NCBI RefSeq assembly: GCF_000227725.2
Contig: NZ_MU255057.1
Location: forward strand, 175,738-211,520
Length of the DNA stretch: 35,783 nt
Direction: 5' to 3'
From: Thiorhodospira sibirica ATCC 700588
GTDB taxonomy: Bacteria; Pseudomonadota; Gammaproteobacteria; Ectothiorhodospirales; Ectothiorhodospiraceae
In this document: positions 11,761 through 34,372 of the stretch, in pieces
How positions within the stretch are numbered: position 1 is the first letter of the stretch
Layout: each line of letters opens with the position of its first letter
The notes under the pieces: generated by a model
What the model was told of the DNA's origin: nothing
What the model saw: the letters and a program-made list of their open reading frames with translations, nothing else
Database searches by the model: none
Program-made: the position numbers and the translations under genes

Positions 11761-11767
11761 TGGGAGC

Positions 11768-11784
11768 GCCGAGTTGTACTCGGC
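11768..11784. repeat. Solitary hairpin of the GCCGAGT family
   Basis: Arms GCCGAGT and ACTCGGC with loop TGT. It is followed by CTGGTCGGGCAACCGGGA and GGATGAAAAACCAAGCCGAC, the same layout as the long unit of the array at 22.7-23.6 kb. This shows the unit is dispersed and not confined to the array. Confidence 0.7.
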
Positions 11785-14141: not shown

Positions 14142-14886
14142 GCAACGCTCAGGGAACGCAAAGCCCACCGGGAGCGCGGAGCGCACCGGGAGCGCGGAGC
14201 GCTAGCTCCGCACCGGGGGTGGGAGAGCTCCAGCTCTCCCTTTAGCTAAATCGCCAAAGCCAGGAGCGCAGAGCTCCCGCGCTCCCTTGGCAGCCCGGCG
14301 CTCCGCATCGCCTGGAAACAGAATATGCTTAATTCATCCTTGCCAGCACCCGATAAATGTTCTATGATCCAAGCCCCATTAAGGATGAATACTAAAATCC
14401 GATACCCAGAACTCGGTTTCCAGTCTAAAACAATGCCGGACAATTGTGCCTCTCGCAAAACCTCACCCAGCGTGTCGCTTTTTTGTCACAAAAAAAAATC
14501 TGTGTCGTTTAAACGCACATTTTCAGTTGACAACACCCCCCAACCGGGATAGCCTTCCACTTTGCTGGAGCAGGTGAATGTTTCGCGTGACATGGATCAA
14601 CCAAGGTAGCCTATCCGATGCTATACACCAGACAAAAAACCATAGGCCACACGGCAAATCCATCGCCATGCACAGACACCGCTTCGTACTGCCCTACTGT
14701 AAAACACCAAGCACAGGACAACGCATGTTGGCTGAAGCAAACATATCAATCGGCGCTACTTGAAAAACCACATGCAATGGAATGATGCGACTGGAAAAAA
14801 TTCCCCCCGCAAAGGGATTGCGTTAATGCCTCAATCGCCACATAATGAACCTGATTTTTTCAACAACCCTCTACGGAGACTCCTAA
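14142..14886. other. 745-bp gene-free leader region of the giant gene
   Basis: No convincing gene; frames of 60-75 codons here have no support. The first 150 bp carry GC-rich hairpins. The rest is AT-richer and probably holds the promoter and 5' leader of the 2276-aa gene. A TTGACA hexamer lies at about 14527-14532, but no good -10 box follows it at 17 bp. GGAGA at about 14876-14880 is the ribosome binding site for the ATG at 14887. Confidence 0.45.
14184..14240. repeat. Double hairpin: GCGGAGC/GCTCCGC plus GGGAGAGC/GCTCTCCC
   Basis: Hairpin 1 has arms 14194-14200 and 14205-14211 with loop GCTA. Hairpin 2 has arms 14221-14228 and 14233-14240 with loop TCCA. The spacer is CACCGGGGG. The same double unit recurs at 34319-34372 with almost the same flanks, but there hairpin 1 has arms GCACAGC/GCTGTGC. 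A degenerate partial copy (GGGAGCGCGGAGCGC) sits just upstream at 14169-14184. Confidence 0.75.
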
Positions 14887-17800
14887 ATGTCAGCAAGACC
14901 AATTAGCTACGGACCCAAACAGCTCGCCATGGAAATCTACGCCGGTATCTGGGGTAGAACACCAGATTGGGAAGGGGCCGATTACTGGACACAGCAGCTC
15001 ATCAGCGGATCCATGAGCCGTGTAGATATCGCGACCAGCTTCTTTGACCAGCCTCTGGTCAAAAGCCAATATGCCGGCCTGAGCGGAGATGACTTCCTTG
15101 AGGCCCTCTACCTCAACATCTTCAACGTAGCTGAACCTGACGCCGAAGGCTTCGCCTACTGGCAGGGCAAAATCGAAGAAGACCCCAGCCTGCTGAGCGT
15201 CAACATCGGCACCCTGGTCATCCAGATGATCGACGGCATGTGGGGCAATCCCGAGGCCGCCGACACCCACGCCCTGTACAAAAACTTCGTATTGTCGGGT
15301 GAGCGTTTTGTAGACGCCCAGAAAGCCGCCGGGGTGCGCGCTTTCAACCACATGAACTCCGACGAGCGCGAGGCATTCCTTGACGTCGCCGCGACCCTGC
15401 GCGAAGGCATCACCGCCACCACCACCTCCAGCCAGATCGACACCCTGATTGCCAGCGCCATGCAATCCTTGGGCTATGATGCAGGTCAGCCGGGCGGTCC
15501 TTCGCAGACCCTCTATCTGACCGAAGGGCGCGATACGCCTGAAACCCTGGTAGCGAGCAACAGCGACACCAAATTCATTGGTGATGTTGTGCAAAATCTG
15601 TTCGGTGCGCAGGTCAACACCCTCGGCACCGGTGATCGCCTTGACGGTCGTGGCGGCAACAACAGCCTGCAGGCCCAGGTCACCGAAGGTGCCTTCATGG
15701 GTGGCGGTAACATGCCCATCCAGCCAGTGACCCACCGCATCCAGGACATCAAGCTCGAAGCCCTGAATGCACATATCGGCGGCACCTTTGCTAACCCGAA
15801 TAGCAACTCCGAAGTCTACGTCAACGCCAAAAACATGCACGGCATTGACAAAATCGGCTCGTGGTACTCCAATGCCAACCTGACCATCAAAGACCTCACC
15901 ACCAAAGACGACAACGGCGTTGCCCGTCCGCTGGAAAGCATGACCATCGGCATGGAATACACCGGCAATGGTGACAGCCGCTGGCAGGCCTCCGACCTGC
16001 ACGTCTTCTTTGACCAGGACTACCTCGTCCCCACCCTGGACCGTGGTGTTGAGCGCGTCGTATACCGCCTGCTCAACGAAGACTGGTACGACCAGATCGC
16101 CAATCCCAACGGCGGCATCGCCCTGGAACCGTTAAACGCCGTCGCCGTACAGCGTCTGGAATTTGCCATTGACTGGTCAAATGGCAACGGCACCAACGAA
16201 ACCCGCTTCACCGCCTTTAACGAGCTGCTGCACGGTCTGGAAATCGCCACCCCCGGTAACGTCTTCGTCACCGTACAAGACCTGGCGAACTTCCTGAACA
16301 TAGCTGCCGTGCCTATGGTGCGTGGCGATCTTACAGCGGCCGAAGCGGCCCAGGCGTGGTTTGACTTTGCCGGCCGTCCAGCAGGTTTTGACACCCACGT
16401 CTCGCAAGACGATCTGACCGCACTGCTCAGCAACTGGACGCAGACCCTGCAACAACAGGATGCCATCTGGAGCACCCTGGATCTGAGCTTCTCCGTAGGT
16501 CAACCCTTCCTGGCCGACATCAGCCCCGTATCCGGTGCCCAGCGTATCGGTACCGACCTCGTCCTCGAAGTCCCTGCGGCCCAATTGGTTCGTCCTGGCA
16601 CCACCGACAGCTTCGGCACACTGCGTACCGAAGACGCCTGGGCGGTCATTGAGCCCGTCGAGCGGATCAATCTGCAAAACCACCCTACCGTCATCGATCG
16701 AGGCATTACCGATCCGCGCGACCTCAACAGTAACCGCTTTGAACGCGCCAGCCGTGAAGAAGCCGAGCAGAGTCAAGATCTCATCATCAACGTAGATCTT
16801 GAAAAAGTCGGTCGTGCCAGCGATGGTGGCGAACTGATCATCGGCGGCATGTCCAAGACCAACGCCAACGTCTGGGACGCCGGCTCCGGCTCCAAAGGCA
16901 TTGACATCTTCAACATCACCGTGCATGGCGGTGCCGACAAGCCCAGCTCGCTCTCCAGCCTGGCCTCGACCAACAACAGCCTGCGCGAAGTCTATGTCTC
17001 CACGGCAGCGGCTAACGCCAACAACCCGGCCAACCTGACCATCGGCAACACGAACACCGCCAACAACTACGCGGGCGATGGCATCTCGTTGAAAGACGTG
17101 CGGGTTCTGGACACCACGCAATTCCTCGGTGATTTCACCCTGCGTCATGCAGAAATCACTCGTGAAAGCATTGCCAAGTACATGGACCTGCGTGACCGTG
17201 CGCCCAACCAGCCACAAGACGACAACGTCTTTTTCACCTATCACCTGGGCGATGGCGACGACTTCCTGGCACTCAATGTCAACTGGCAGGTGCTGGCGCG
17301 TGAAGACTTCCGTTTAGACATTCAAAGCGGTGCAGGCAATGACCGCATCATCCTGAATGAAAACTACACCGCAGGCTACACCGCCAACCGTCTGGTCAAC
17401 CAGCAGCTCAACGACAACATCGCCATCCATGCCGGCGACGGTGACAACTTCGTCAACACCTGGGGTGCAGGTAATGCCCGCATCACCACCGGCAGCAACG
17501 ACGACGTCATCAAAACCGACAACTCAGGTGCCAAAGCACAGTTCATTTTCAACTCCGTAGCCGGTTTCCGGGGTGATGGTAATGAACTGAGCAACAGCGG
17601 TGTGCTCGATTCCTCCCGTGGCAACGACCAGGTACAGACCTTTAACTTCTTCAAAGGCACCGTACAGGTCACCTTCCAGGGGATTGAAACCCGTCACATC
17701 GAAATCCCCAGCACGGGCTACACCAGCAGCACCCTGCAAATCAATCAGGCCATCAAGAAAGCCATCAATGACGATCCAGTCCTGAGCAAAGTTCTGGATG

Positions 17801-20800
17801 CCAAAGACGGCCCCGGCAACACCCTGCTGGTCGAATCCAGAATTGACGGGCGCATGGTGTTCAATGACCTTGACGTCACCCTGTTCGCCCCGCTGGCCTA
17901 CAATGCCAACCCCACGGCCGCCGAGCGGGCGCTCATGGCCGAAGGTCGCCTGATGCTCAACAGTGGTGATCTGGCCGCCGCTGATCGCAGTCATGCCGAC
18001 ATCAACACCGCAGTGGACAATGCCAGACCGTTGTATGACACCGCGTTTGTCATGAGTGGTCAGCGTGACCCAGTGGTCTTTGAGCAAAGCATCAATTTTG
18101 CCGGATTCCAGACCAGTGATGACCATATTGACCCGGTCTTCTCAGGCAGCAATATCATCGAGGTCGGTGGTATACGGATCACCTTGCAAGATGACATGAG
18201 CTCCGCGCAGATTGCCCAGGCGGTTGCCACTGCCCTGCAAGGTGCCATCAACGCTTCAGGGGGTGCGGCCCGGCTGAGCACCAGCGATGGCTATCATTAC
18301 CTCAACAGTGCCACCGTCAATGGTAGCGTTGTAAATCTTCAATTCATTGAAGGCATTCGTGTGCCCTTTGGTGATCGGCCCGGTACTGTCACGGTCGGTC
18401 GTGTTGACGGTGCAGAAGATGCCTATCTGAGCACCACCAACCCGCAGGATGGTGGTGGAATGAATGTATCCAGTGCCGCGCCATTGGCTGCAACCGGTGG
18501 CACCACCGCCTGGCAAACCACCACCTTCGATTTTGCCAACAGCAAAATTGCCGTTAATGGCGGTGGTCAGTTTACGCTAAGCTCCGATCTAAGCGGTTTA
18601 CCGGCTGTGGGTCCGGCCTCCACCACCGTGGTTACACCGCTCAACATCGCTGTGACGGTTGCCAATGGCGACGGCCCCCTGGCGATTGCCAACAAAGTCG
18701 CTGCTGCAGTCAATCTCAGTGGCGAAGGCTGGGCAACAGTACGCGGAACGCAGGTAGAAATCCGCTGGTTTGAAGAAAGTGCGCCGACCCAGACCGAAGT
18801 TGGCAAAGGCAATCATGGTACCGTTAGCATCGCCGCAGGCAGTGCTACCCTGGCCGCCGGTAGCAGCTTGCCAAGTGGTTCAAGCACCGCCTATGCCTCT
18901 ACTGTCATCACCCCGGCCACCGGTACGCTGACCCAGACCATCAACACCAGCGGCATGGAAGTGACCGAAGCGGGCACCTTAACCATTGCAGGTCGTGATA
19001 TTGCGCTGGACTACGGTGACAACGATCTGGCGATTGCCGACAAGATTGCCCAGGCACTCAACGGCCAAAGCGATCTGCTGGGTGGTCAGGCCAGCGTGAC
19101 TGCCACCGCCAATGGCGCCGTGGTCACCGTGACCCAGACGGCCACCGCCGGCAGTGTGGCCGTGAATCCTATTGTCAATGTTTTCAGCGATGCCAAATTT
19201 GCTGCCAAACAGCTGCCCAGTGTAGTTACCAATAACTGGACCTGGAGCCTCAATGAAGGTGCCATTCAGGCAGGTACAAACAGCACGGCAGAAAGCGACA
19301 ACGTCATTAACGCCGGCAACGGTCAAGACGTCATTGTGCTGGGAACCGGTGCCTACAGCAACGACACCATCGTCCTGGCGGGCAACTTTGGACGCAACAC
19401 CATCTTCAACTACGATGGTAATTCCAGCAGCACCGCCCGTGACTACATTGATGTCAGCGCCTATGGCATCCGTGGCATCATTTACGACGCGAAAACGCCG
19501 GGCAAGTTCGTCATGGATCAGGTACAAGCGGCTTCCGGTCAGCTCAACAACGACGCCGTTGTCAGCCTGGAAGTCAATGCTGCAGATTTTGCCCGTCTCA
19601 GTGGTGAGCTGGTGCGTGCCAACCTCAACGGCACCGCCACCGCAACCGACAACATTGCCGGCCTGCCCAGCAGCGTCAATGCCCAGTCCGGTCTGAATGC
19701 GGCCAGCAACTATGTGCTGATGGTACACAACAGCGAAAACCCAGGTGAATACAAACTGTTTCACCTGACCGCCGCTGCCGGTGCCAACAACAACCAGTTC
19801 GCTACCGCAACTGCGATCGGCGTGCTGGATTTTGGCACCAACAATTTTGCTGCGCCGGGTCCGATCACCCCGCCCGCAGTTTCACCCTGGTTTAACTGGT
19901 TTAGCATTAACCAGCTGAATGAAATGGGGAATGTCTCTCTGCCATATAGCCTCCATGTTAGTGTCTCTGGTACGGAGACGCTCGCAGCGCATATCAGCAG
20001 CGCCTCCATGACGTTCCACATGAATGGGGGGACCGTCAACCTGACCGGCAGCCTGAGACTCAATGGCGATCTCACCGTCAACAGCGGCACCCTGAATACG
20101 ACGGCAGGCCAGATCAGCGTAGCTGGCAGCATCACGGTTAACTCCGCCCTGGTAGTAACCGCTGCCCAGGCAATGAGTTTTGTCCATGCAGATGTATTGT
20201 TCTCCTCCCTCACGGGTCAAGGCCAGCTCATCATTGATGGTCAAGCCTTACAGCTGACCCAAATGCCGCAGCAGCTCCAGTTTGCAGATGGCAAATTCAG
20301 CTTTGAGGATGTGATTGAGCCGCCAGGCAGTGCCGTACTGGTAGTGGACTCCATCACCCCAGTGCCTGCTGACGTCAAAGCCGGCGAAGCCTTTGATGTA
20401 GTCGTTGAGCTGCAAAACACCGGCGATGCGGCTCCGGTTGGCCTGAATGCGGTATTGACGGTAAACAACGTCAATTACGGGGGCATCATTAATGGATTGC
20501 AAATCACCTTCCCAGGTGTGACGGTTGACGAAGCCGCTGAGGAGGTAGCACTGGATGTCACGGTGCGTGCAGACAACGCACAAGACGTCTCCAGCAGCAC
20601 CTTCATCACCGTTCTGCCTGATGAAACCACGGTTGATCCTGCCGTACTGTCTGTCGCCATTGTCGATGTCAGCCCAGCAGAGCCCAAAGCCGATGAAGAA
20701 TTCAGCGTCACCGTTGAAGTCACCAACTTAACCCCGGAAAATGATCCCGGTGCAATCCGTGTTACCCTGACGCTCAACGGCACAGAAATACCTGATGTTG

Positions 20801-21717
20801 ATGTTGGCCCGGATAACCGTGCGGTCTTCTCCGGTCTGACCAAGCCAGCGGGTGATTACACCCTGACAGCCAGCGTCAGCGCAGACAACGGAGCCGGCGA
20901 GCCAGTGGTACAAGCCATCACCGTTCTGCCAGACGATGTGATCCCGCCGGTTGAATTCGACGATATCATTACCGTTGCTGACCTGCAAACCTACGATGCT
21001 GCCGCAGGCAACATCAAATATGTGCTGGACTTCAATGGCGGCGTTAATGTAGCCACCATCCAGAACTTCAGCGCCGGTGATGCCATCGACATGAGCGATG
21101 CACCAGACGGTAGCGGCATGGTCGTTGACACCACCGGCACCACTGAGCTCAACATTGCCTTTGGTGACGTTACCAACTTTACCAACACCTGGGTGCTCAA
21201 CTTCCACAACGTGGATGCTGCCCTGGTGGCTGCTGTCGAAGCCAACGAAGGTAACTTGGATGCACAGGTCAACCTGATCAGCGCCCAATGGGCCGACTGG
21301 CTGATTGACAGCGACAACGGCGGTGGCAACGGCGGTGGTGGCACCCCTGGTGAATTTGACAACAGCATCATTGTCGTCGATCTGCAGACTTACGACGCAG
21401 CTACCGGCAACAATGAATATGTGCTGAGCTTCAATGGCGGTGTCAATGTAGCCACCATTCAAAACTTCAGTGCCGGCGATGCCATCAACATCAGCGCCGA
21501 GCCTGCAGGCAGTGGCATGGTCATCGACACCACCGGCACCACCGAGCTCAACATTGCCTTTGGTGACGTTACCAACTTTACCAACACCTGGGTGCTCAAC
21601 TTCCACAACGTGGATGCTGCCCTGGTGGCTGCTGTCGAAGCCAACGAAGGTAACCTGGATGCACAGATCCAGCTAATCGCGGCACAATGGACTAGCGACT
21701 GGTTGATTGCCGCCTAA
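14887..21717 (+). CDS. Giant DUF4214/CARDB surface protein (S-layer-like or adhesin)
   Basis: A 2276-aa protein without an N-terminal signal peptide, as in type I secretion substrates. Residues ~10-100 resemble DUF4214 (YAGIWGRTPDWEGADYWTQQ, then LYLNIFNVAEPDAEGFAYWQ), a helical domain found at the start of many S-layer and RTX proteins. A long Asn/Gly/Thr/Asp-rich beta region follows, with RTX-like stretches such as GTGDRLDGRGGNNSL, HAGDGDNFVNTWGAG and INAGNGQDVIVLG. Two CARDB-like domains lie at about residues 1815-1910 and 1920-2015. The end consists of two near-identical ~130-aa modules (FDDIITVADLQTYDAA, then TIQNFSAGDAI), probably calcium-binding or secretion-related. Cysteine seems absent. 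SD GGAGA precedes the start. Proposed role: the major surface layer or a giant adhesin; the family of the middle part is unrecognised. Confidence 0.8.
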   Translation: MSARPISYGPKQLAMEIYAGIWGRTPDWEGADYWTQQLISGSMSRVDIATSFFDQPLVKSQYAGLSGDDFLEALYLNIFNVAEPDAEGFAYWQGKIEEDPSLLSVNIGTLVIQMIDGMWGNPEAADTHALYKNFVLSGERFVDAQKAAGVRAFNHMNSDEREAFLDVAATLREGITATTTSSQIDTLIASAMQSLGYDAGQPGGPSQTLYLTEGRDTPETLVASNSDTKFIGDVVQNLFGAQVNTLGTGDRLDGRGGNNSLQAQVTEGAFMGGGNMPIQPVTHRIQDIKLEALNAHIGGTFANPNSNSEVYVNAKNMHGIDKIGSWYSNANLTIKDLTTKDDNGVARPLESMTIGMEYTGNGDSRWQASDLHVFFDQDYLVPTLDRGVERVVYRLLNEDWYDQIANPNGGIALEPLNAVAVQRLEFAIDWSNGNGTNETRFTAFNELLHGLEIATPGNVFVTVQDLANFLNIAAVPMVRGDLTAAEAAQAWFDFAGRPAGFDTHVSQDDLTALLSNWTQTLQQQDAIWSTLDLSFSVGQPFLADISPVSGAQRIGTDLVLEVPAAQLVRPGTTDSFGTLRTEDAWAVIEPVERINLQNHPTVIDRGITDPRDLNSNRFERASREEAEQSQDLIINVDLEKVGRASDGGELIIGGMSKTNANVWDAGSGSKGIDIFNITVHGGADKPSSLSSLASTNNSLREVYVSTAAANANNPANLTIGNTNTANNYAGDGISLKDVRVLDTTQFLGDFTLRHAEITRESIAKYMDLRDRAPNQPQDDNVFFTYHLGDGDDFLALNVNWQVLAREDFRLDIQSGAGNDRIILNENYTAGYTANRLVNQQLNDNIAIHAGDGDNFVNTWGAGNARITTGSNDDVIKTDNSGAKAQFIFNSVAGFRGDGNELSNSGVLDSSRGNDQVQTFNFFKGTVQVTFQGIETRHIEIPSTGYTSSTLQINQAIKKAINDDPVLSKVLDAKDGPGNTLLVESRIDGRMVFNDLDVTLFAPLAYNANPTAAERALMAEGRLMLNSGDLAAADRSHADINTAVDNARPLYDTAFVMSGQRDPVVFEQSINFAGFQTSDDHIDPVFSGSNIIEVGGIRITLQDDMSSAQIAQAVATALQGAINASGGAARLSTSDGYHYLNSATVNGSVVNLQFIEGIRVPFGDRPGTVTVGRVDGAEDAYLSTTNPQDGGGMNVSSAAPLAATGGTTAWQTTTFDFANSKIAVNGGGQFTLSSDLSGLPAVGPASTTVVTPLNIAVTVANGDGPLAIANKVAAAVNLSGEGWATVRGTQVEIRWFEESAPTQTEVGKGNHGTVSIAAGSATLAAGSSLPSGSSTAYASTVITPATGTLTQTINTSGMEVTEAGTLTIAGRDIALDYGDNDLAIADKIAQALNGQSDLLGGQASVTATANGAVVTVTQTATAGSVAVNPIVNVFSDAKFAAKQLPSVVTNNWTWSLNEGAIQAGTNSTAESDNVINAGNGQDVIVLGTGAYSNDTIVLAGNFGRNTIFNYDGNSSSTARDYIDVSAYGIRGIIYDAKTPGKFVMDQVQAASGQLNNDAVVSLEVNAADFARLSGELVRANLNGTATATDNIAGLPSSVNAQSGLNAASNYVLMVHNSENPGEYKLFHLTAAAGANNNQFATATAIGVLDFGTNNFAAPGPITPPAVSPWFNWFSINQLNEMGNVSLPYSLHVSVSGTETLAAHISSASMTFHMNGGTVNLTGSLRLNGDLTVNSGTLNTTAGQISVAGSITVNSALVVTAAQAMSFVHADVLFSSLTGQGQLIIDGQALQLTQMPQQLQFADGKFSFEDVIEPPGSAVLVVDSITPVPADVKAGEAFDVVVELQNTGDAAPVGLNAVLTVNNVNYGGIINGLQITFPGVTVDEAAEEVALDVTVRADNAQDVSSSTFITVLPDETTVDPAVLSVAIVDVSPAEPKADEEFSVTVEVTNLTPENDPGAIRVTLTLNGTEIPDVDVGPDNRAVFSGLTKPAGDYTLTASVSADNGAGEPVVQAITVLPDDVIPPVEFDDIITVADLQTYDAAAGNIKYVLDFNGGVNVATIQNFSAGDAIDMSDAPDGSGMVVDTTGTTELNIAFGDVTNFTNTWVLNFHNVDAALVAAVEANEGNLDAQVNLISAQWADWLIDSDNGGGNGGGGTPGEFDNSIIVVDLQTYDAATGNNEYVLSFNGGVNVATIQNFSAGDAINISAEPAGSGMVIDTTGTTELNIAFGDVTNFTNTWVLNFHNVDAALVAAVEANEGNLDAQIQLIAAQWTSDWLIAA
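20953..21714 (+). repeat. Tandem duplication encoding the C-terminal module
   Basis: Two in-frame units about 399 bp apart. The stretch from 21127 (GACACCACCGGCACC) for about 140 bp reappears at 21526 with only two differences I can find, while the first half of each unit differs more. This suggests recent duplication or ongoing gene conversion. A Gly/Asn linker (DNGGGNGGGG) lies between the units. Confidence 0.9.
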
Positions 21718-22009: not shown

Positions 22010-22696
22010 ATGTCACGACTAACCGGCTCGTCATTATCCGAACACCTATTAAACAGTCTCGGCGTCAACCTCAACGCCTTGCTGCAAACGACCTTCAGCA
22101 ACAAACTACAAAACATGATCAATGCGCAGCAAGACAGCAACCTTGCCCTTGCCGCCGTATTCATGCAATCCTCCGATGTTCGCGCCGCCGTCAACGGCCT
22201 CATCACCGCCCTGTCGGCTGAAATTGCCGCAACCAAAGCCCAACTGGGTGAAGAACCGGGCGGCTGGCGCCTGCACTACGCCCAAGATGGCAGCAGCGCC
22301 CAAACCCTCAGCGGCCAAACCGGCGTACAAGACCTCTTTATCCTCAACTACCTGTTTGATGAACGCAACGGCGGCTTCTCCAGCTTTGGCCAGGTCACCA
22401 TCAACAACTATCGCCAGGCCGACGGCGACCGCATCGTCTTCATCGACCAAAGCAACACCCAAGGCATCGACATCACCCAATTCAGCAACTACGTCGAACC
22501 CCAGGAAGGCAACGCCCGCATCCTCTTCAACCCATCTCCGGACAACCCGCCCCAACCGGAGCAATGGCTACAGATCATGGGCGCCGCCAGCCCGCCCTTC
22601 GGCGGCACACCCAAAGACATTGAAGGCGTTGAATTCGTCCTGCTCACACAACAACAGATCGAACTCACCGGCATAGAACCCGCCCTCGGTCTATAG
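22010..22696 (+). CDS. 228-aa secreted-type protein sharing its N-domain with the RsaA-like protein
   Basis: Residues 1-80 (TGSSLSEHLLNSLGVNLNAL, AAVFMQSSDVRAAVNG) are roughly half identical to residues 1-80 of the 1115-aa protein at 23681. The rest is a single beta-rich domain (LSGQTGVQDLFILNYLF, NYRQADGDRIVFIDQS, DIEGVEFVLLTQQQIEL). Its DGDRIVFI segment resembles the C-terminal modules of calcium-binding type I secretion substrates. It has no signal peptide and no cysteine. It may be a minimal type I secreted partner: shared N-domain plus one terminal module. I do not recognise the family. It stands between the giant protein and the hairpin array, with 290 bp upstream holding two hairpins. 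Confidence 0.75.
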   Translation: MSRLTGSSLSEHLLNSLGVNLNALLQTTFSNKLQNMINAQQDSNLALAAVFMQSSDVRAAVNGLITALSAEIAATKAQLGEEPGGWRLHYAQDGSSAQTLSGQTGVQDLFILNYLFDERNGGFSSFGQVTINNYRQADGDRIVFIDQSNTQGIDITQFSNYVEPQEGNARILFNPSPDNPPQPEQWLQIMGAASPPFGGTPKDIEGVEFVLLTQQQIELTGIEPALGL

Positions 22697-23583
22697 GATC
22701 GCCGCGCTGGATCGCCGAGTTGCACTCGGCATCATGGATCGCCGACTTTTAGTCGGCTGGTCGGGCAGCCGGAGCATGGATTTATTATGCCGAGTACAAC
22801 TCGGCGATCCAGGCCCAATGGATCGCCGACTTTTAGTCGGCTGGTCGGGCAGCCGGAGCATGGATTTAAAACCAGCCGACTTGGAGCGCCGACTTGCAGT
22901 CGGCATCATGGAGCGCCGAGTTGCACTCGGCATAATTTATGATAGATCGCCGACTTGCAGTCGGCGGGTCGAGCAGCCGGAGCATGGATTTAAAACCAGC
23001 CGACTTGGAGCGCCGAGTTGCACTCGGCATCATAGATCGCCGACTTGCAGTCGGCGGGTCGAGCAGCCGGAGCATGGATTTAAAACCAGCCGACTTGGAG
23101 CGCCGACTTGCACTCGGCATCATGGAGCGCCGACTTGCAGTCGGCATATGATAGATCGCCGACTTGCAGTCGGCGGGTCGAGCAGCCAGAGCATGGATTT
23201 AAAACCAGCCGACTTGGAGCGCCGAGTTGCACTCGGCATAATTTATGATAGATCGCCGAGTTGCACTCGGCGGGTCGAGCAGCCGGAGCATGGATTTAAA
23301 ACCAGCCGAGTACAACTCGGCGATCCAGGCCCAATGGATCGCCGACTTGCAGTCGGCGGGTCGAGCAGCCGGAGCATGGATTTAAAACCAGCCGACTTGG
23401 AGCGCCGAGTTGCACTCGGCATAATTTATGATAGATCGCCGACTTGCAGTCGGCGGGTCGAGCAGCCGGAGCATGGATTTAAAACCAGCCGAGTACAACT
23501 CGGCGATCCAAGCCGAGTACAACTCGGCGATCCAAGCCGAGTACAACTCGGCGATCCAAGCCGAGTACAACTCGGCGATCCAT
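22697..23583. repeat. Array of 22 short hairpins of the GCCGA(C/G)T family
   Basis: I count 22 units of a 7-bp stem with a 3-nt loop between 22714 and 23576. Two arm versions occur, GCCGACT/AGTCGGC and GCCGAGT/ACTCGGC, with loops TGC, TTT or ACA (ACA being TGT read in reverse). Many are linked by a longer conserved spacer: GGGTCGAGCAGCCGGAGCAT, then GGATTTAAAACCAG. One unit (about 23103-23119) is a hybrid, GCCGACT with ACTCGGC, and so has one mispair. The last four units are a simple tandem with GATCCAA between them. The array fills the gap between two paralogous secreted-protein genes. Confidence 0.9.
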
Positions 23584-23680
23584 AAACCGTGCAAATGCAT
23601 TGCGATTTAAATGCTTTGCGAATAGAATCATTCACAGCTGTTTTAACCCACTTTGTTCAGTAAGGAAAAGGTAATACACT

Positions 23681-26600
23681 ATGTCTCAAGTCACAGGCTC
23701 CACCCTGATTGCTCAAATTCTTGAAAACCTCGGCGTGCAGCTCAACGCGCTGTTGATGCAGGCCTACACCGCCAAGCTGCAAGCGATGCTCGATAGCGGC
23801 CAGGCCAGTAACCTCGCCGTTGCTGCCGTCTTGATGCAAAGCAGCGACGTGCGTACCGCCGTCAATGGCAACACGGTGGCCTTGTCAACCCAGGTCCAGC
23901 AAGCCAAAGACGAAATCGAAGGCGGCACCCCCCCCGGCGAGCTGACCTTCACCCTCTCCGGCCCGAGCCAGGTCAACGAAGGCGAGAGCATCAGCTTCAC
24001 CCTGACCGCCTCGCGTCCATTGGAAGAAGGCGAAGCCAGAACCTTCGCCCTGTCATTCCAAGGCGATACCCTTGATGGTACCGTGGATGCAGCCACCGTC
24101 GGCGGTGCCAATACCGACTTCGGCACCCTGCCCAGCACCGTCACCATGGCAGTGGGCGCCAGCACCGCCACTTTCAGCGTGCCAATTCGCGCTGATAATG
24201 TGGTTGAAAACACCGAAGGCTTCCGCGTCACTGTGCTTGATGGCACCACCCCCGTCGCCACTGCCCGCGCGCTGATTCTCGATGTCATCACCGACCAGGA
24301 AGCTCCGGTCATCGCTGCTAACCAGACCTTCAGCTATGCCGAAAACCAGGCGGCTAACGCCGTACTCGCCACCGTCGCCGCCACCGACAATGTCGGCGTG
24401 ACCGGCTTTGAAATCGTCTCTGGCAATGACAACGGGTATTTCCAGATCGACGAACAAGGGCGCATCACCCTGACCGAGGCCGGTCTGGTCAACAAGCCCG
24501 ACGGCCAAGCCGCCGGTGCCAACGACTTTGAAAGCGGTGCCAACACCTTCACCCTGGGCATTCGCGCCGTCGATGCCGCGGGCAATCAGTCCGCGCCCGT
24601 CCCAGTCGTGCTCAATGTCACCGACCTCAACGACACCCCGCCGGAGTTGGTGAATGCCGCCGTGTCTGGCTCCAGTGTGGTGCTGGGTTACAGCGAAAAC
24701 CTCAATCCGGCCAACCTGCCGCTGCCCACTGATTTCAGCGTGGTACAAGGCACAACCGCCATTGGTGTGCAAACCGTCAACATTCAGGGTTCCACTGTCA
24801 CCTTGACCCTGGCACAGGCACCGACCGCCAATATCACCATCAGCTACACACCCAACGCCACGGCAAGCCGTCAGTTGCAAGACATGGTCGGCAATGCCGC
24901 GCTGGCACTGACCAACCAGACCGCTGCGGTGGACAACACCGCCCCAACGCTGGTGAGCAGCACGCCTGCCGATGGTGCTGCCAACATCCCCGTGGGCAGC
25001 GACATCGTGCTGACCTTCTCCGAGCCGGTCAAAGCGGGTACGGGCAACATCCAGATCGTCAACCCCACCAACAGCGCCGACACCCGCACCATCAGCATCA
25101 CCGATGCCACCCAGGTGACCTTTGACGGCGCGCGCGTGACCATCAATCCAACCAATGATCTTCTGGAAGGGGTCAACTACCGCGTGATCATGCAGTCTGG
25201 CGTGATCACTGACCTGGTGGGCAATGCCTTTGCCGGGCTGTCGGGCACTGAACTCGACTTCTCCACCCCGGGTGGCGAGACCCCGACCGAGGGCCAAACC
25301 TTCACGCTCACTACCGGTCTTGACAATCTCGTTGGCACATCGGGTAACGACACGTTCGTGGGTGATAATTCTGCCGGTTTAGTTACGGTCAGTGCTGGCG
25401 ACAAGATCGACGGCGCTGCCGGGACCGATACGTTCAATTATTTCGGTGCGGCCGCTGCAGTGGTTCTGCCGCAGATGAGTGGTGTCGAAGTGTTGAACCT
25501 GTTCGCTCCGACGGCAACGACTGGCCTCAATACCTCTGCTGTTAGCGGTCTTGAGCAAGTGAACTACGTTAATGCCGCGCTCACTACTGCAAACTTGTCC
25601 GGTATTACGTTGGCAGCCACTCAGCAGCTTGGACTGAACAACGTCACAACCACTGGTACCGTTACTGCGACGGTCGGCAACACCGCAACCGCAGCCACCC
25701 TGAACCTGAGTAATGGTTCGTATGTGGGCACAGTCACCCTTAACGGCACCGCCATCAAGACCCTGAATGTCAGCTCCTCGGGTAGCAAGGCCAACGTGGT
25801 TAAGGGTTTGGCCTCTGATGGCACCGAAGAGACGGTGACCATCACTGGCGACCAAAAGCTGACCGTTACCGATGCACTGGCTGATACCGTCAAGACCGTT
25901 GACGCCTCTGCAATGACCGCAGGTGGTGCGCTCGTCACTGCAGGCGCGGCAGATGTGAAATTTACCGGTGGTGCAGGTGATGACACGATCACCTTTGCTG
26001 CAACTGCGTTCAACTCTAAGGACGTGGTCGATGGTGGCGCTGGTCGCGACACCGTAGTAATCGGCGACGCGGCTCTCACCGCCGAGATCACGAAGGGTAT
26101 CAATGCCTTCACCAACGTCGAGGTCCTTGGGCTGAGCGATGCTGCTACCGTGGATGTCTCTACGATCACATCGCTGTCTGAGTACTCGGTTCTGAACGCG
26201 GGTACTACGACGTTCAACGCGGCGTCAGCAACAAACAAGTTCTCCGTCGATGTCGCCGGTGCTACAGTGACTGAGGTCGAGATCAGCAACAAGGTGGGCG
26301 AACTCTCCACCACGGTGACACTGAACAACCAGCATACCGCTGCTCAGACCATCACCACGCTGGACATCAATGGTGCGGGCACGACGAACATCGTCTCGTC
26401 GGGCAAGTTTGCCAACATCATCGGCACTTTGGAAGTTCAGGACAACAGCAGCATCGTGATCACGGGTTCCAAGGACCTGACCATCACGAATGCGGTCGCG
26501 GCCGTTGGTACGGGTCACAAGATCGATGCGTCTGCGCTCACTGGCAAGTTGTCTGTGACGGGTAGTGGTTCTGCAGACATCATCATCGGCGGTTCCGCTG

Positions 26601-27028
26601 CGGATACGATCTTCGGCTCGGCCGGCAAAGATACGATCACGCTCGGTGCTGGTAACGACGTTGTCGATTACAACGCCGCAACTGAATCCTTTGTTGGCGC
26701 TACCCTTGCAGATCAGGTCGCTTCTATTGACGTGATTACCGACTTCGGGAATGGTGCTAACAAACTCAACCTCGTAGACTTTACGGGTGGCACGACCTTT
26801 GTTTCACAGGTGACGGTTCAGACTGCAGTAGGTAATGCAGCTGATCTGGCGGCTGCCTTTACTGCAGCGGCTGTGGCCATTGGCGCGAATGGTGTTGGAG
26901 CCTTCCAGTTCGACGGCAACACTTACGTCCTCGCCCAAGACGCGAGCGCTGCTCTTGCCGATACTGATCTGGCCGTGCAGCTTACTGGGCTGCATACGCT
27001 TACGGCTGATAACTTCGTACTTGTCTAA
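23681..27028 (+). CDS. RsaA-like S-layer/RTX protein
   Basis: A 1115-aa protein with the N-domain shared with the 228-aa neighbour (residues 1-80). A Calx-beta-like domain follows at about 88-195 (PSQVNEGESISFTLTASRPL), then a cadherin-like domain at about 205-315 (YAENQAANAVLATVAATDNV), an SwmB-like repeat at about 318-420 (VVLGYSENLNPANLPLPTDF) and a Big_5-like Ig domain at about 420-530 (PADGAANIPVGSDIVLTFSE). From about residue 540 it resembles Caulobacter RsaA: DNLVGTSGNDTFVGD and AGDKIDGAAGTDTFNYFGAA. RTX-type repeats sit near the end (GSGSADIIIGGSAADTIFGS) and the RsaA-like terminus has FQFDGNTYVLAQDAS and LTGLHTLTADNFVLV. Such ends direct type I secretion and the repeats bind calcium. 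It is probably a surface-layer protein. No rsaD/E/F-type exporter genes are in the window. A strong terminator follows. Confidence 0.87.
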   Translation: MSQVTGSTLIAQILENLGVQLNALLMQAYTAKLQAMLDSGQASNLAVAAVLMQSSDVRTAVNGNTVALSTQVQQAKDEIEGGTPPGELTFTLSGPSQVNEGESISFTLTASRPLEEGEARTFALSFQGDTLDGTVDAATVGGANTDFGTLPSTVTMAVGASTATFSVPIRADNVVENTEGFRVTVLDGTTPVATARALILDVITDQEAPVIAANQTFSYAENQAANAVLATVAATDNVGVTGFEIVSGNDNGYFQIDEQGRITLTEAGLVNKPDGQAAGANDFESGANTFTLGIRAVDAAGNQSAPVPVVLNVTDLNDTPPELVNAAVSGSSVVLGYSENLNPANLPLPTDFSVVQGTTAIGVQTVNIQGSTVTLTLAQAPTANITISYTPNATASRQLQDMVGNAALALTNQTAAVDNTAPTLVSSTPADGAANIPVGSDIVLTFSEPVKAGTGNIQIVNPTNSADTRTISITDATQVTFDGARVTINPTNDLLEGVNYRVIMQSGVITDLVGNAFAGLSGTELDFSTPGGETPTEGQTFTLTTGLDNLVGTSGNDTFVGDNSAGLVTVSAGDKIDGAAGTDTFNYFGAAAAVVLPQMSGVEVLNLFAPTATTGLNTSAVSGLEQVNYVNAALTTANLSGITLAATQQLGLNNVTTTGTVTATVGNTATAATLNLSNGSYVGTVTLNGTAIKTLNVSSSGSKANVVKGLASDGTEETVTITGDQKLTVTDALADTVKTVDASAMTAGGALVTAGAADVKFTGGAGDDTITFAATAFNSKDVVDGGAGRDTVVIGDAALTAEITKGINAFTNVEVLGLSDAATVDVSTITSLSEYSVLNAGTTTFNAASATNKFSVDVAGATVTEVEISNKVGELSTTVTLNNQHTAAQTITTLDINGAGTTNIVSSGKFANIIGTLEVQDNSSIVITGSKDLTITNAVAAVGTGHKIDASALTGKLSVTGSGSADIIIGGSAADTIFGSAGKDTITLGAGNDVVDYNAATESFVGATLADQVASIDVITDFGNGANKLNLVDFTGGTTFVSQVTVQTAVGNAADLAAAFTAAAVAIGANGVGAFQFDGNTYVLAQDASAALADTDLAVQLTGLHTLTADNFVLV

Positions 27029-29852: not shown

Positions 29853-30803
29853 ATGCTCGGCCACTATGTCAACCTCTTCACCGATTTTGGCTTTAAAAAA
29901 ATCTTTGGTGAAGACAGCAGCAAAGCGCACCTGATCAGCTTTTTAAACACCCTGCTGCCCCAAAAACACCAGATCAGGGATTTAACCTTTATTCAAAACG
30001 AATACCAGGGCGCGAGTGCGCTGGATCGCAAGGCGATATTTGACCTCAACTGTGTCAGTGATCGCGGCGAGCACTTTATTGTCGAACTGCAAAAAGCCAA
30101 GCAGAACTTTTTTAAAGACCGCAGCCTGTTTTACGCCACCTTCCCGATTCAACAGCAAGCCCAAAAAGGCGACGACTGGAATTTCAAACTGGCGGCGGTT
30201 TACACCATCGGCATTCTGGATTTTGTGTTTGATGAGGACAAAAACGACCCGCAGCACAAAGATCAGGTGGTGCATCAGGTGCAACTGAAAAATCAGCACA
30301 ATCAGGTGTTTTACGACAAACTCACCTTCATTTACCTGACCTTGCCCAACTTTTGCAAAACCGAAGAAGAACTGCAAACCCTGCAAGACAAATGGTTCTA
30401 CCTGTTTCGGCACTTGCACCGCTTGCAAGAGCAGCCGCAAAAACTGCAAGAACGCATCTTTACCAGCCTGTTCAAACACGCCAGCATCGCCCGTTTTAAA
30501 CCCGAAGAACGCATCGCCTACGAATCCAGCCTGAAATACTACCGTGATTTGACCAATGTGATTGATACCGCCTGGGGGGATGGTGAGAAAGTCGGCTTAG
30601 AAAAAGGCAGACAGGAAGGCCGGGAGGAAGGCAGGGAGGAAGGCAGACAGGAAGGCAGGGAGGAAGGCAGAAATGAAATGGTGCTCAATATGCTGCAAGC
30701 CGGTCTGCCAGATGATCAGGTGATGCGCATTGCCCAGATCACGGCTGACGAACTGGCAGCCATCAAAGCACAACAAACGCATCAGGCGGGTTCAGCGCGT
30801 TAG
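29853..30803 (+). CDS. Rpn/PD-(D/E)XK nuclease family protein, copy 1
   Basis: A 316-aa protein of the Rpn (recombination-promoting nuclease) family, also called PDDEXK_2 or TIGR01784 'transposase'. FTDFGFKKIFGEDSSKAHLI opens the protein. The catalytic region has the Asp of RKAIFDLNCVSDRG and the Glu of FIVELQKAKQ, giving a D...ExQ core as in this family. These proteins cut DNA and are linked to RecA-independent gene transfer or to phage defence. The C-terminal part holds an Arg/Glu/Gly tetrapeptide repeat (GRQEGREEGREEGRQEGREE). SD GAGGTG precedes the ATG. The last residues THQAGSAR come from a REP copy. It seems intact. Confidence 0.88.
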   Translation: MLGHYVNLFTDFGFKKIFGEDSSKAHLISFLNTLLPQKHQIRDLTFIQNEYQGASALDRKAIFDLNCVSDRGEHFIVELQKAKQNFFKDRSLFYATFPIQQQAQKGDDWNFKLAAVYTIGILDFVFDEDKNDPQHKDQVVHQVQLKNQHNQVFYDKLTFIYLTLPNFCKTEEELQTLQDKWFYLFRHLHRLQEQPQKLQERIFTSLFKHASIARFKPEERIAYESSLKYYRDLTNVIDTAWGDGEKVGLEKGRQEGREEGREEGRQEGREEGRNEMVLNMLQAGLPDDQVMRIAQITADELAAIKAQQTHQAGSAR

Positions 30804-31132
30804 CAACAGTCCGCCACGTCTTAATGCGCCCCTGGGAGCGCGTAGCACCAGCTACGCATAGAGGCCGCAGGCCTCGTGGGGTTTAAAAGACATGCGCCCC
30901 TGGGACCGCGTAGCACCGGCTACGCACCGAGGCCGCAGGCCTCGTGGGGTTTAAAAGACATGCGCCCCTGGGAGCGCGTAGCACCAGCTACGCATCGAGG
31001 CCGCAGGCCTCGTGGGGTTTAAAAGACATGCGCCCCTGGGACCGCGTAGCACCGGCTACGCATCGAGGCCGCAGGCCTCGTGGGGTTTAAAAGACATGCG
31101 CCCCTGGGAGCGCGTAGCACCAGCTACGCATC
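30781..31132. repeat. REP copy 3 and a 68-bp tandem repeat with alternating hairpins
   Basis: Repeat units begin at 30824, 30892, 30960, 31028 and 31096, exactly 68 bp apart; the fifth is partial. Each has hairpin GCGTAGC/GCTACGC and hairpin GAGGCC/GGCCTC (loop GCA), then TGGGGTTTAAAAGAC. Units alternate between GGAGCGCG with loop ACCA and GGACCGCG with loop ACCG, so the real period is 136 bp. No coding frame. Confidence 0.92.
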
Positions 31133-32341: not shown

Positions 32342-33256
32342 ATGCTCGGCCACTATGTCAACCTCTTCACCGATTTTGGCTTTAAAAAAATCTTTGGTGA
32401 AGACAGCAGCAAAGCGCACCTGATCAGCTTTTTAAACACCCTGCTGCCCGAAAAACACCAGATCAGGGATTTAACCTTCATCCAGAACGAATACCAGGGC
32501 GCGAGTGCGCTGGATCGCAAGGCGATATTTGACCTCAACTGTGTCAGTGATCGCGGCGAGCACTTTATTGTCGAACTGCAAAAAGCCAAGCAGAACTTTT
32601 TTAAAGACCGCAGCCTGTTTTACGCCACCTTCCCGATTCAACAGCAAGCCCAAAAAGGCGACGACTGGAATTTCAAACTAGCGGCGGTTTACACCATCGG
32701 CATTCTGGATTTTGTGTTTGATGAGGACAAAAACGACCCGCAGCACAAGGATCAGGTGGTGCATCAGGTACAACTGAAAAATCAGCACAATCAGGTGTTT
32801 TACGACAAACTCACCTTCATTTACCTGACCTTGCCCAACTTCCGCAAAACCGAAGAAGAACTGCAAACCCTGCAAGACAAATGGTTCTTTCTGTTTCGGC
32901 ACTTGCACCGCTTGCAAGAGCAGCCGCAAAAACTGCAAGAACGCATCTTTACCAGCCTGTTCAAACACGCCAGCATCGCCCGTTTTAAACCCGAAGAGCG
33001 CATCGCCTACGAATCCAGCCTGAAATACTACCGTGACCTAACCAATGTGATTGATACCGCCTGGGGGGATGGTGAGAAAGTCGGCTTAGAAAAAGGCAGA
33101 CAGGAAGGCCGGGAGGAAGGCAGAAATGAAATGGTGCTCAATATGCTGCAAGCCGGTCTGCCGGATGATCAGGTGATGCGCATTGCCCAGATCACGGCTG
33201 ACGAACTGGCAGCCATCAAAGCACAACAAACGCATCAGGCGGGTTCAGCGCGTTAG
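32342..33256 (+). CDS. Rpn/PD-(D/E)XK nuclease family protein, copy 3
   Basis: A 304-aa intact copy, differing from copy 1 by a few substitutions (for example RKTEEELQ for CKTEEELQ, and KWFFLFRHL for KWFYLFRHL) and by a shorter Arg/Glu repeat (GRQEGREEGRNE). Same D...ExQ catalytic region, same SD and the same conserved 60-bp upstream sequence (CTGCTAAACTACCCGTATCC, then TTGATTGATCCTGC). Same REP-encoded end. The three genes form a tandem family with about 1-1.5 kb spacing. Confidence 0.88.
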   Translation: MLGHYVNLFTDFGFKKIFGEDSSKAHLISFLNTLLPEKHQIRDLTFIQNEYQGASALDRKAIFDLNCVSDRGEHFIVELQKAKQNFFKDRSLFYATFPIQQQAQKGDDWNFKLAAVYTIGILDFVFDEDKNDPQHKDQVVHQVQLKNQHNQVFYDKLTFIYLTLPNFRKTEEELQTLQDKWFFLFRHLHRLQEQPQKLQERIFTSLFKHASIARFKPEERIAYESSLKYYRDLTNVIDTAWGDGEKVGLEKGRQEGREEGRNEMVLNMLQAGLPDDQVMRIAQITADELAAIKAQQTHQAGSAR

Positions 33257-34318: not shown

Positions 34319-34372
34319 CGGGAGCGCACAGCTCCAGCTGTGCACCGGGGGAGGGAGAGCTCCAGCTCTCCC
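34319..34372. repeat. Double hairpin GCACAGC/GCTGTGC plus GGGAGAGC/GCTCTCCC
   Basis: Arms 34326-34332 and 34337-34343 (loop TCCA); arms 34353-34360 and 34365-34372 (loop TCCA). Flanks match the double hairpin at 14184-14240, 20 kb away, but the first stem is different and still perfectly paired. Confidence 0.85.

Follow-up and report, generated by a model that had tools for sequence, protein, structure and literature searches.

A hairpin array occupies 22709..23581 (unstranded, GGAKC and GMTCC tags included) of the window, the whole 35,783-nt stretch of the Thiorhodospira sibirica genome that was analyzed, and lies between two co-directional genes. The upstream gene (22010..22696, plus strand) encodes a protein of 228 amino acids without a Pfam match, and the array begins 12-18 nt past its stop codon. 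The downstream gene (23681..27028, plus strand), whose start lies ~100 nt beyond the array, encodes a protein of 1115 amino acids with Big_5, an SWM repeat, and RTX nonapeptide repeats. The N-terminal domain that the initial annotation had described as paralogous is indeed common to both proteins (52% over 86 aa). Farther upstream (14887-21717), the window encodes a DUF4214 protein of 2276 amino acids, the last part of which carries two near-identical ~90-residue repeats.

Between 22714 and 23576, 22 sites match GCCGASTNNNASTCGGC; the chance expectation for the entire window was ~0.5, even allowing two mismatches. Twelve units have GCCGAGT/ACTCGGC arms (GAG-type), nine have GCCGACT/AGTCGGC arms (GAC-type), and one is a C:C-mispaired hybrid, so that all 22 units and both arm types reported initially were recovered. 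The hybrid, GCCGACT TGC ACTCGGC, does combine one arm of each type with one mispair, and it is located at 23102..23118 (plus strand), one base to the left of the position first given (about 23103-23119). The predicted DNA hairpin with an intact 7-bp stem and 3-nt loop had a free energy of -7.3 kcal/mol, that of the hybrid -4.0 kcal/mol.

The array is a mosaic in which GGAKC (or AGATC) heads stand to the left of forward units and GATCC to the right of inverted ones; truncated halves of inverted units (AACCAGCCGACTTGGAGC) also occur. The shared spacer motif pointed out earlier, ATTTAAAACCAG, occurs seven times. The ACA loop was found only in inverted units, which have GATCC on the right and are all GAG-type, and the TTT loop only in two GAC-type units. 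The loops are thus tied to the class and orientation of the unit and do not vary independently, contrary to what had been proposed. At 22736..22810 (unstranded), a near-complete REPIN-like doublet, GGATC-[GCCGACT TTT AGTCGGC]-spacer-[GCCGAGT ACA ACTCGGC]-GATCC, has the same architecture as copies dispersed through the genome. Tandem Repeats Finder recovered nested periods across the array, including a 183-nt module in two tandem copies with 97% matches (23154..23514, unstranded) and four exact copies of the 24-nt inverted unit AGCCGAGTACAACTCGGCGATCCA (23487..23582, minus strand). Thus, we deduced that the cluster grew by repeated tandem duplication. Units in both orientations and repeated spacers ruled out a CRISPR array. 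A 283-aa open frame (22734-23585) was not called by the hexamer coding model, and an Rfam search returned only sub-threshold chance matches (animal microRNA families and one sRNA).

The window-type hairpin pattern (family 2) matched 108 sites in the 3.2-Mb genome, of which 86 lie outside the array, and a control pattern matched none. In 57 related genomes, none of them congeneric, the same pattern was found zero times or once each. The GAG type made up 83 of the 86 outside sites, whereas the GAC type accounted for 9 of the 22 inside (Fisher P ~1e-5), implying that the GAC type was amplified locally. The C:C hybrid of the GAC/GAG pair is a single instance genome-wide.

Genome context was read from sampled stretches, including an unbiased 400-kb sample (L073-L092). 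As evident from 78 collected non-window hairpins, the GGAKC tag is polar: it stood on exactly one side in 72, on both sides in one, and on neither in five. The family-2 head is GGAGC or GGATC, with T as the preceding base in 47% and G as the next one in 27%. Dispersed copies have the form GGAKC-hairpin-TGGTCGGG...TTTAAAACCA-hairpin-GMTCC, that is, an inverted doublet with the heads pointing outward. Many doublets have a spacer of 25-41 nt; singlets also occur, some of them with a degenerate partner, and the window itself holds one single family-2 hairpin with a GGAGC head (11763..11784, plus strand). At three genomic loci (L023, L031, and L036), a family-2 doublet is preceded by one and the same flank; the doublet's right hairpin is GCCGACTACAAGTCGGC at one locus and GCCGACTACACGTCGGC at the other two. 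Hairpin clusters were extragenic in 48 of 51 cases in a genome that is ~87% coding. In the fetched regions, clusters elsewhere contained one to three hairpins each, and the window array is therefore an exception in size.

Neighboring genes around the dispersed clusters were in tandem in 23 cases, convergent in 10, and divergent in 8. These data bear on the idea that the array is a functional intergenic RNA or DNA element of its locus, such as an mRNA stabilizer, an attenuator, or a terminator for the downstream RTX-type gene, with the repeats being secondary. Its placement, close behind the stop codon of one gene and ahead of the start of a second gene with the same direction, would fit such a role, as would 11 terminator-like matches in the array versus 1.3 in shuffled sequences. 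Yet the 86 other copies stand beside unrelated genes in all orientations, and the hairpins are followed by spacer motifs such as ATAATTTATG rather than by T-runs. We regard a dedicated local function as very improbable; any local effect of the array is more likely a by-product.

A second hairpin population, family 1, coexists with family 2 in the genome. It has the form C[TC]GGGAGC-GCnnAGC-loop-GCTnnGC and ~104 sites, and GGAGC was the most frequent head among perfect 7-bp hairpins in the unbiased 400-kb sample. That sample contained several further palindromic families, for instance CGGCATC..GATGCCG (in some cases after GTG or GTGG) and CCCCTCC/AAGGAGGGG, which often adjoin GGAKC hairpins. 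Within the window, family 1 is represented on the plus strand by GGAGC-GCGGAGC GCTA GCTCCGC (14189..14211), by GGAGC-GCACAGC TCCA GCTGTGC (34321..34343), and by a tandem cluster (GGGAGC/GGGACC-GCGTAGC..GCTACGC) with a ~68-nt period (30835..31129). This cluster directly follows the first of two genes for Rpn-type PD-(D/E)XK recombination-promoting nucleases (29853-30803 and 32342-33256), which are 95% identical and differ mainly in a 12-residue EGRE repeat.

The two free stem positions of family 1 were paired in 79 of 99 copies compared with a mean of 23 after shuffling arms, counts that are not independent in that some copies are related by duplication. Five compensated stem types were observed (GG, GC, GT, AC, and CG). 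Thus, the C/G flip in the window is one case of a general rule by which stems change and pairing is kept. Mispaired copies amounted to 20 of 99. In four of them, each arm belongs to an established type and the two types are unlike at two positions; these four chimeras suggest exchange between different hairpins.

The initial annotation had attributed the window hybrid to arm-to-arm copying. If one arm had served as the template for the other within a hairpin (quasipalindrome correction) and so produced both the stem switch and the hybrid, the arms would be expected to agree, as they do in 21 of the 22 units, and mutation by template switching is well established for quasipalindromes. Such copying is not required, however, since the hybrid could equally have arisen by one crossover between units of the GAC and GAG types, within the TTGCA that they share, or by a single substitution. 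The right arm of the hybrid and its next neighbor match the GAG-then-GAC order at 22714 and 23012. Ordinary mutation would also be expected to yield a mispaired unit, and the family-1 chimeras carry two differences with both arms of established types. Arm-to-arm copying is therefore considered an unlikely source of these patterns, and crossover and single substitution may explain the hybrid equally well.

The genome encodes one full-length Y1-type gene of the RAYT kind (C4:2140959-2141660), far from the array. Its product, a protein of 234 amino acids, scored 86.5 bits against NF047646 (cut-off 80) and matched the TnpA-REP structure 4er8 with an E value of 8e-6; its HUH histidines and the YIHxNP-type tyrosine are kept in three orthologs. 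A second Y1 match (L002) was rejected as a RAYT because it looks like an IS200-type remnant, and the genome yielded no further full-length Y1-type transposase. The RAYT gene has family-1 hairpins on either side, and they run into its 3' end. There the reading frame continues through the hairpins (L001:1339-1450, GAHSTSLSGAHSTSCAPG tail), adding ~30 residues that are absent from the orthologs. No family-2 hairpin was detected within ~1.5 kb of the gene, allowing three mismatches.

Among 369 genomes of the class, the three closest relatives of the resident RAYT all have hairpins with GGAGC or GGAC heads at their flanks. Identities to the resident RAYT are 51-53% for G007, ~42% for G303, and 52% over 124 aa for G399, in which the RAYT reading frame appears broken. 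Beside the G007 ortholog, CTGGGAGC-GCCAAGC...GCTTGGC hairpins are repeated in a long tandem array with a ~122-nt period. At L044:2131-3458, at least 12 GGGAGC-hairpins in tandem, together with inverted partners, adjoin a RAYT ortholog of another genus. The G399 ortholog sits between C[TC]GGGAGC-GCCGGCG-TCC-CGCCGGC hairpins, of which there are 54 copies genome-wide. The flanks of the G303 ortholog contain GGAC-CGCGGAGT-TGC-ACTCCGCG and GGAGC-GGCGAGT-TGC-ACTCGCC hairpins, whose apex, AGT-TGC-ACT, is that of the window hairpins. GGAKC-headed perfect hairpins were present at four of four subclade loci versus 1 of 33 other RAYT-like loci (P ~8e-5).

Among 58 relatives, family-1-type hairpins were most numerous in G000, G007, and G010; these are the three genomes in which the RAYT subclade was matched, the match in G010 being a fragment only. 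The family-2-type pattern reached its highest counts among the 369 class genomes in G000 (64) and G399 (54). Exceptions were G103 and G294, which have no close RAYT of the subclade but five and seven such hairpins. The idea that a change at the GTAG-contact residue Q95 gave rise to the new head was rejected: the residue is M in G007, but Q is kept in G303 and G399. The lead toward RAYT and REP elements given by the initial annotation thus held up in the dispersed copies, the RAYT encoded in the genome, and the like-headed hairpins flanking the close relatives of that RAYT; its interpretation as a whole is partly supported.

A REPtron unites a RAYT gene with the cognate REP hairpins at its flanks. 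In this genome, it is family 1 that adjoins the RAYT gene, and the AGT-TGC-ACT, GGAGC/GGAC-headed relative of family 2 adjoins the G303 ortholog. Family 2 might accordingly belong to another mobilizer, an insertion sequence or a lost RAYT, and merely resemble the family 1 of the resident enzyme. The exclusive presence of family 1 at the resident gene speaks for such an origin, and the families differ in loop length (3 nt in family 2, 4 nt in family 1) and head context (GGAKC versus C[TC]GGGAGC). Against it stand the G303 flanks, with their GGAGC/GGAC heads and shared apex, the existence of family-1 members with the stem GCCGAGC, only one stem pair away from family 2, and the lack of a second full-length Y1-type transposase among the genes found. 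A separate mobilizer therefore appears unlikely, though less so than a local function or arm-to-arm copying.

Published definitions of REP sequences require a GT[AG]G tetranucleotide at the 5' foot of the hairpin (PMC3686654, PMC6006769). This head is absent from the window hairpins, and for this reason the element is filed as a REP variant. Other REP features are present, namely a palindrome right after the head, high copy number, and a mostly extragenic location, as is the REPIN feature of paired inverted REP-like units at short spacing. Like REPs and REPINs (PMC2817692, PMC3116915), the elements are short, polar-tagged, extragenic palindromes with ~100 copies, inverted doublets, and tandem clusters, and a single RAYT per genome is directly adjoined by hairpins (here family 1). 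They differ in having GGAKC (family 1: C[TC]GGGAGC) in place of GT[AG]G. Large tandem REP clusters are already known (PMC3116915, PMC3733652); the array has 22 hairpins, whereas the largest tandem REP arrays of SBW25 have 12 REPs (PMC3116915). Escherichia coli BIME-2 (for BIMEs, see PMC8266576) is likewise a tandemly amplified mosaic, composed of direct and inverted REPs and recurrent spacers, but the stems here are short and perfect, with a 3-nt loop, no bulge, no GTAG, and unrelated sequence. Variant heads have a precedent, since atypical non-GT[AG]G hairpins have been reported for TnpA-REP subclasses 2.6 and 3 (PMC6006769). The resident RAYT shares the HUH-Y1 enzyme type with the TnpA-REP subclasses that Quentin et al. 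(2018) defined, but in a by-eye comparison with Table 1 of that work (PMC6006769) its motifs, NH[IV]H, YWDRYIRD, and YIHxNP, fit no subclass exactly. For a GGAGC-headed REP, only unrelated papers were found in the part of the literature that was covered.

Taken together, we conclude with a probability of roughly 85% that the array is a REP/REPIN-like, putatively RAYT-dependent dispersed element that was amplified in tandem between two genes. The hairpins would be REP-like units of a non-autonomous element with the full form GGAKC-hairpin, 25-41 nt spacer, and hairpin-GMTCC. By analogy with characterized TnpA-REP proteins, which use head and palindrome to bind one strand's hairpin and cut beside it (PMC8266576), each GGAKC-tagged strand would form a hairpin when single-stranded; the resident RAYT, an HUH-tyrosine enzyme, may similarly recognize, cut, and join the tagged hairpin strand in trans, including that of family 2. 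Selection for hairpin recognition would keep the arms complementary, so that stem types differ between copies and covary within a copy. One or more doublets presumably inserted between the two paralogous genes, and secondary tandem duplication of units and inverted partners would then have given rise to the 22-unit cluster.

In a broader proposal, to which we assign even odds, one genome harbors two REP-like populations at once, both maintained by a RAYT subclade that has a distinct guide head (GGAGC, or C[TC]GGGAGC), and the stems of these populations drift by coordinated arm changes and inter-copy arm exchange with head and hairpin form fixed. If this is right, GT[AG]G is not the universal REP head; a RAYT subclade present in three families of one class would use GGAGC-headed hairpins, and such REPs would escape searches based on GT[AG]G. 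With two stem families, their many compensated types, and one enzyme, the genome would constitute a natural test of whether a RAYT reads head and shape or the letters of the stem, and the densely packed, marked units of the array would allow the growth of REP clusters to be measured.
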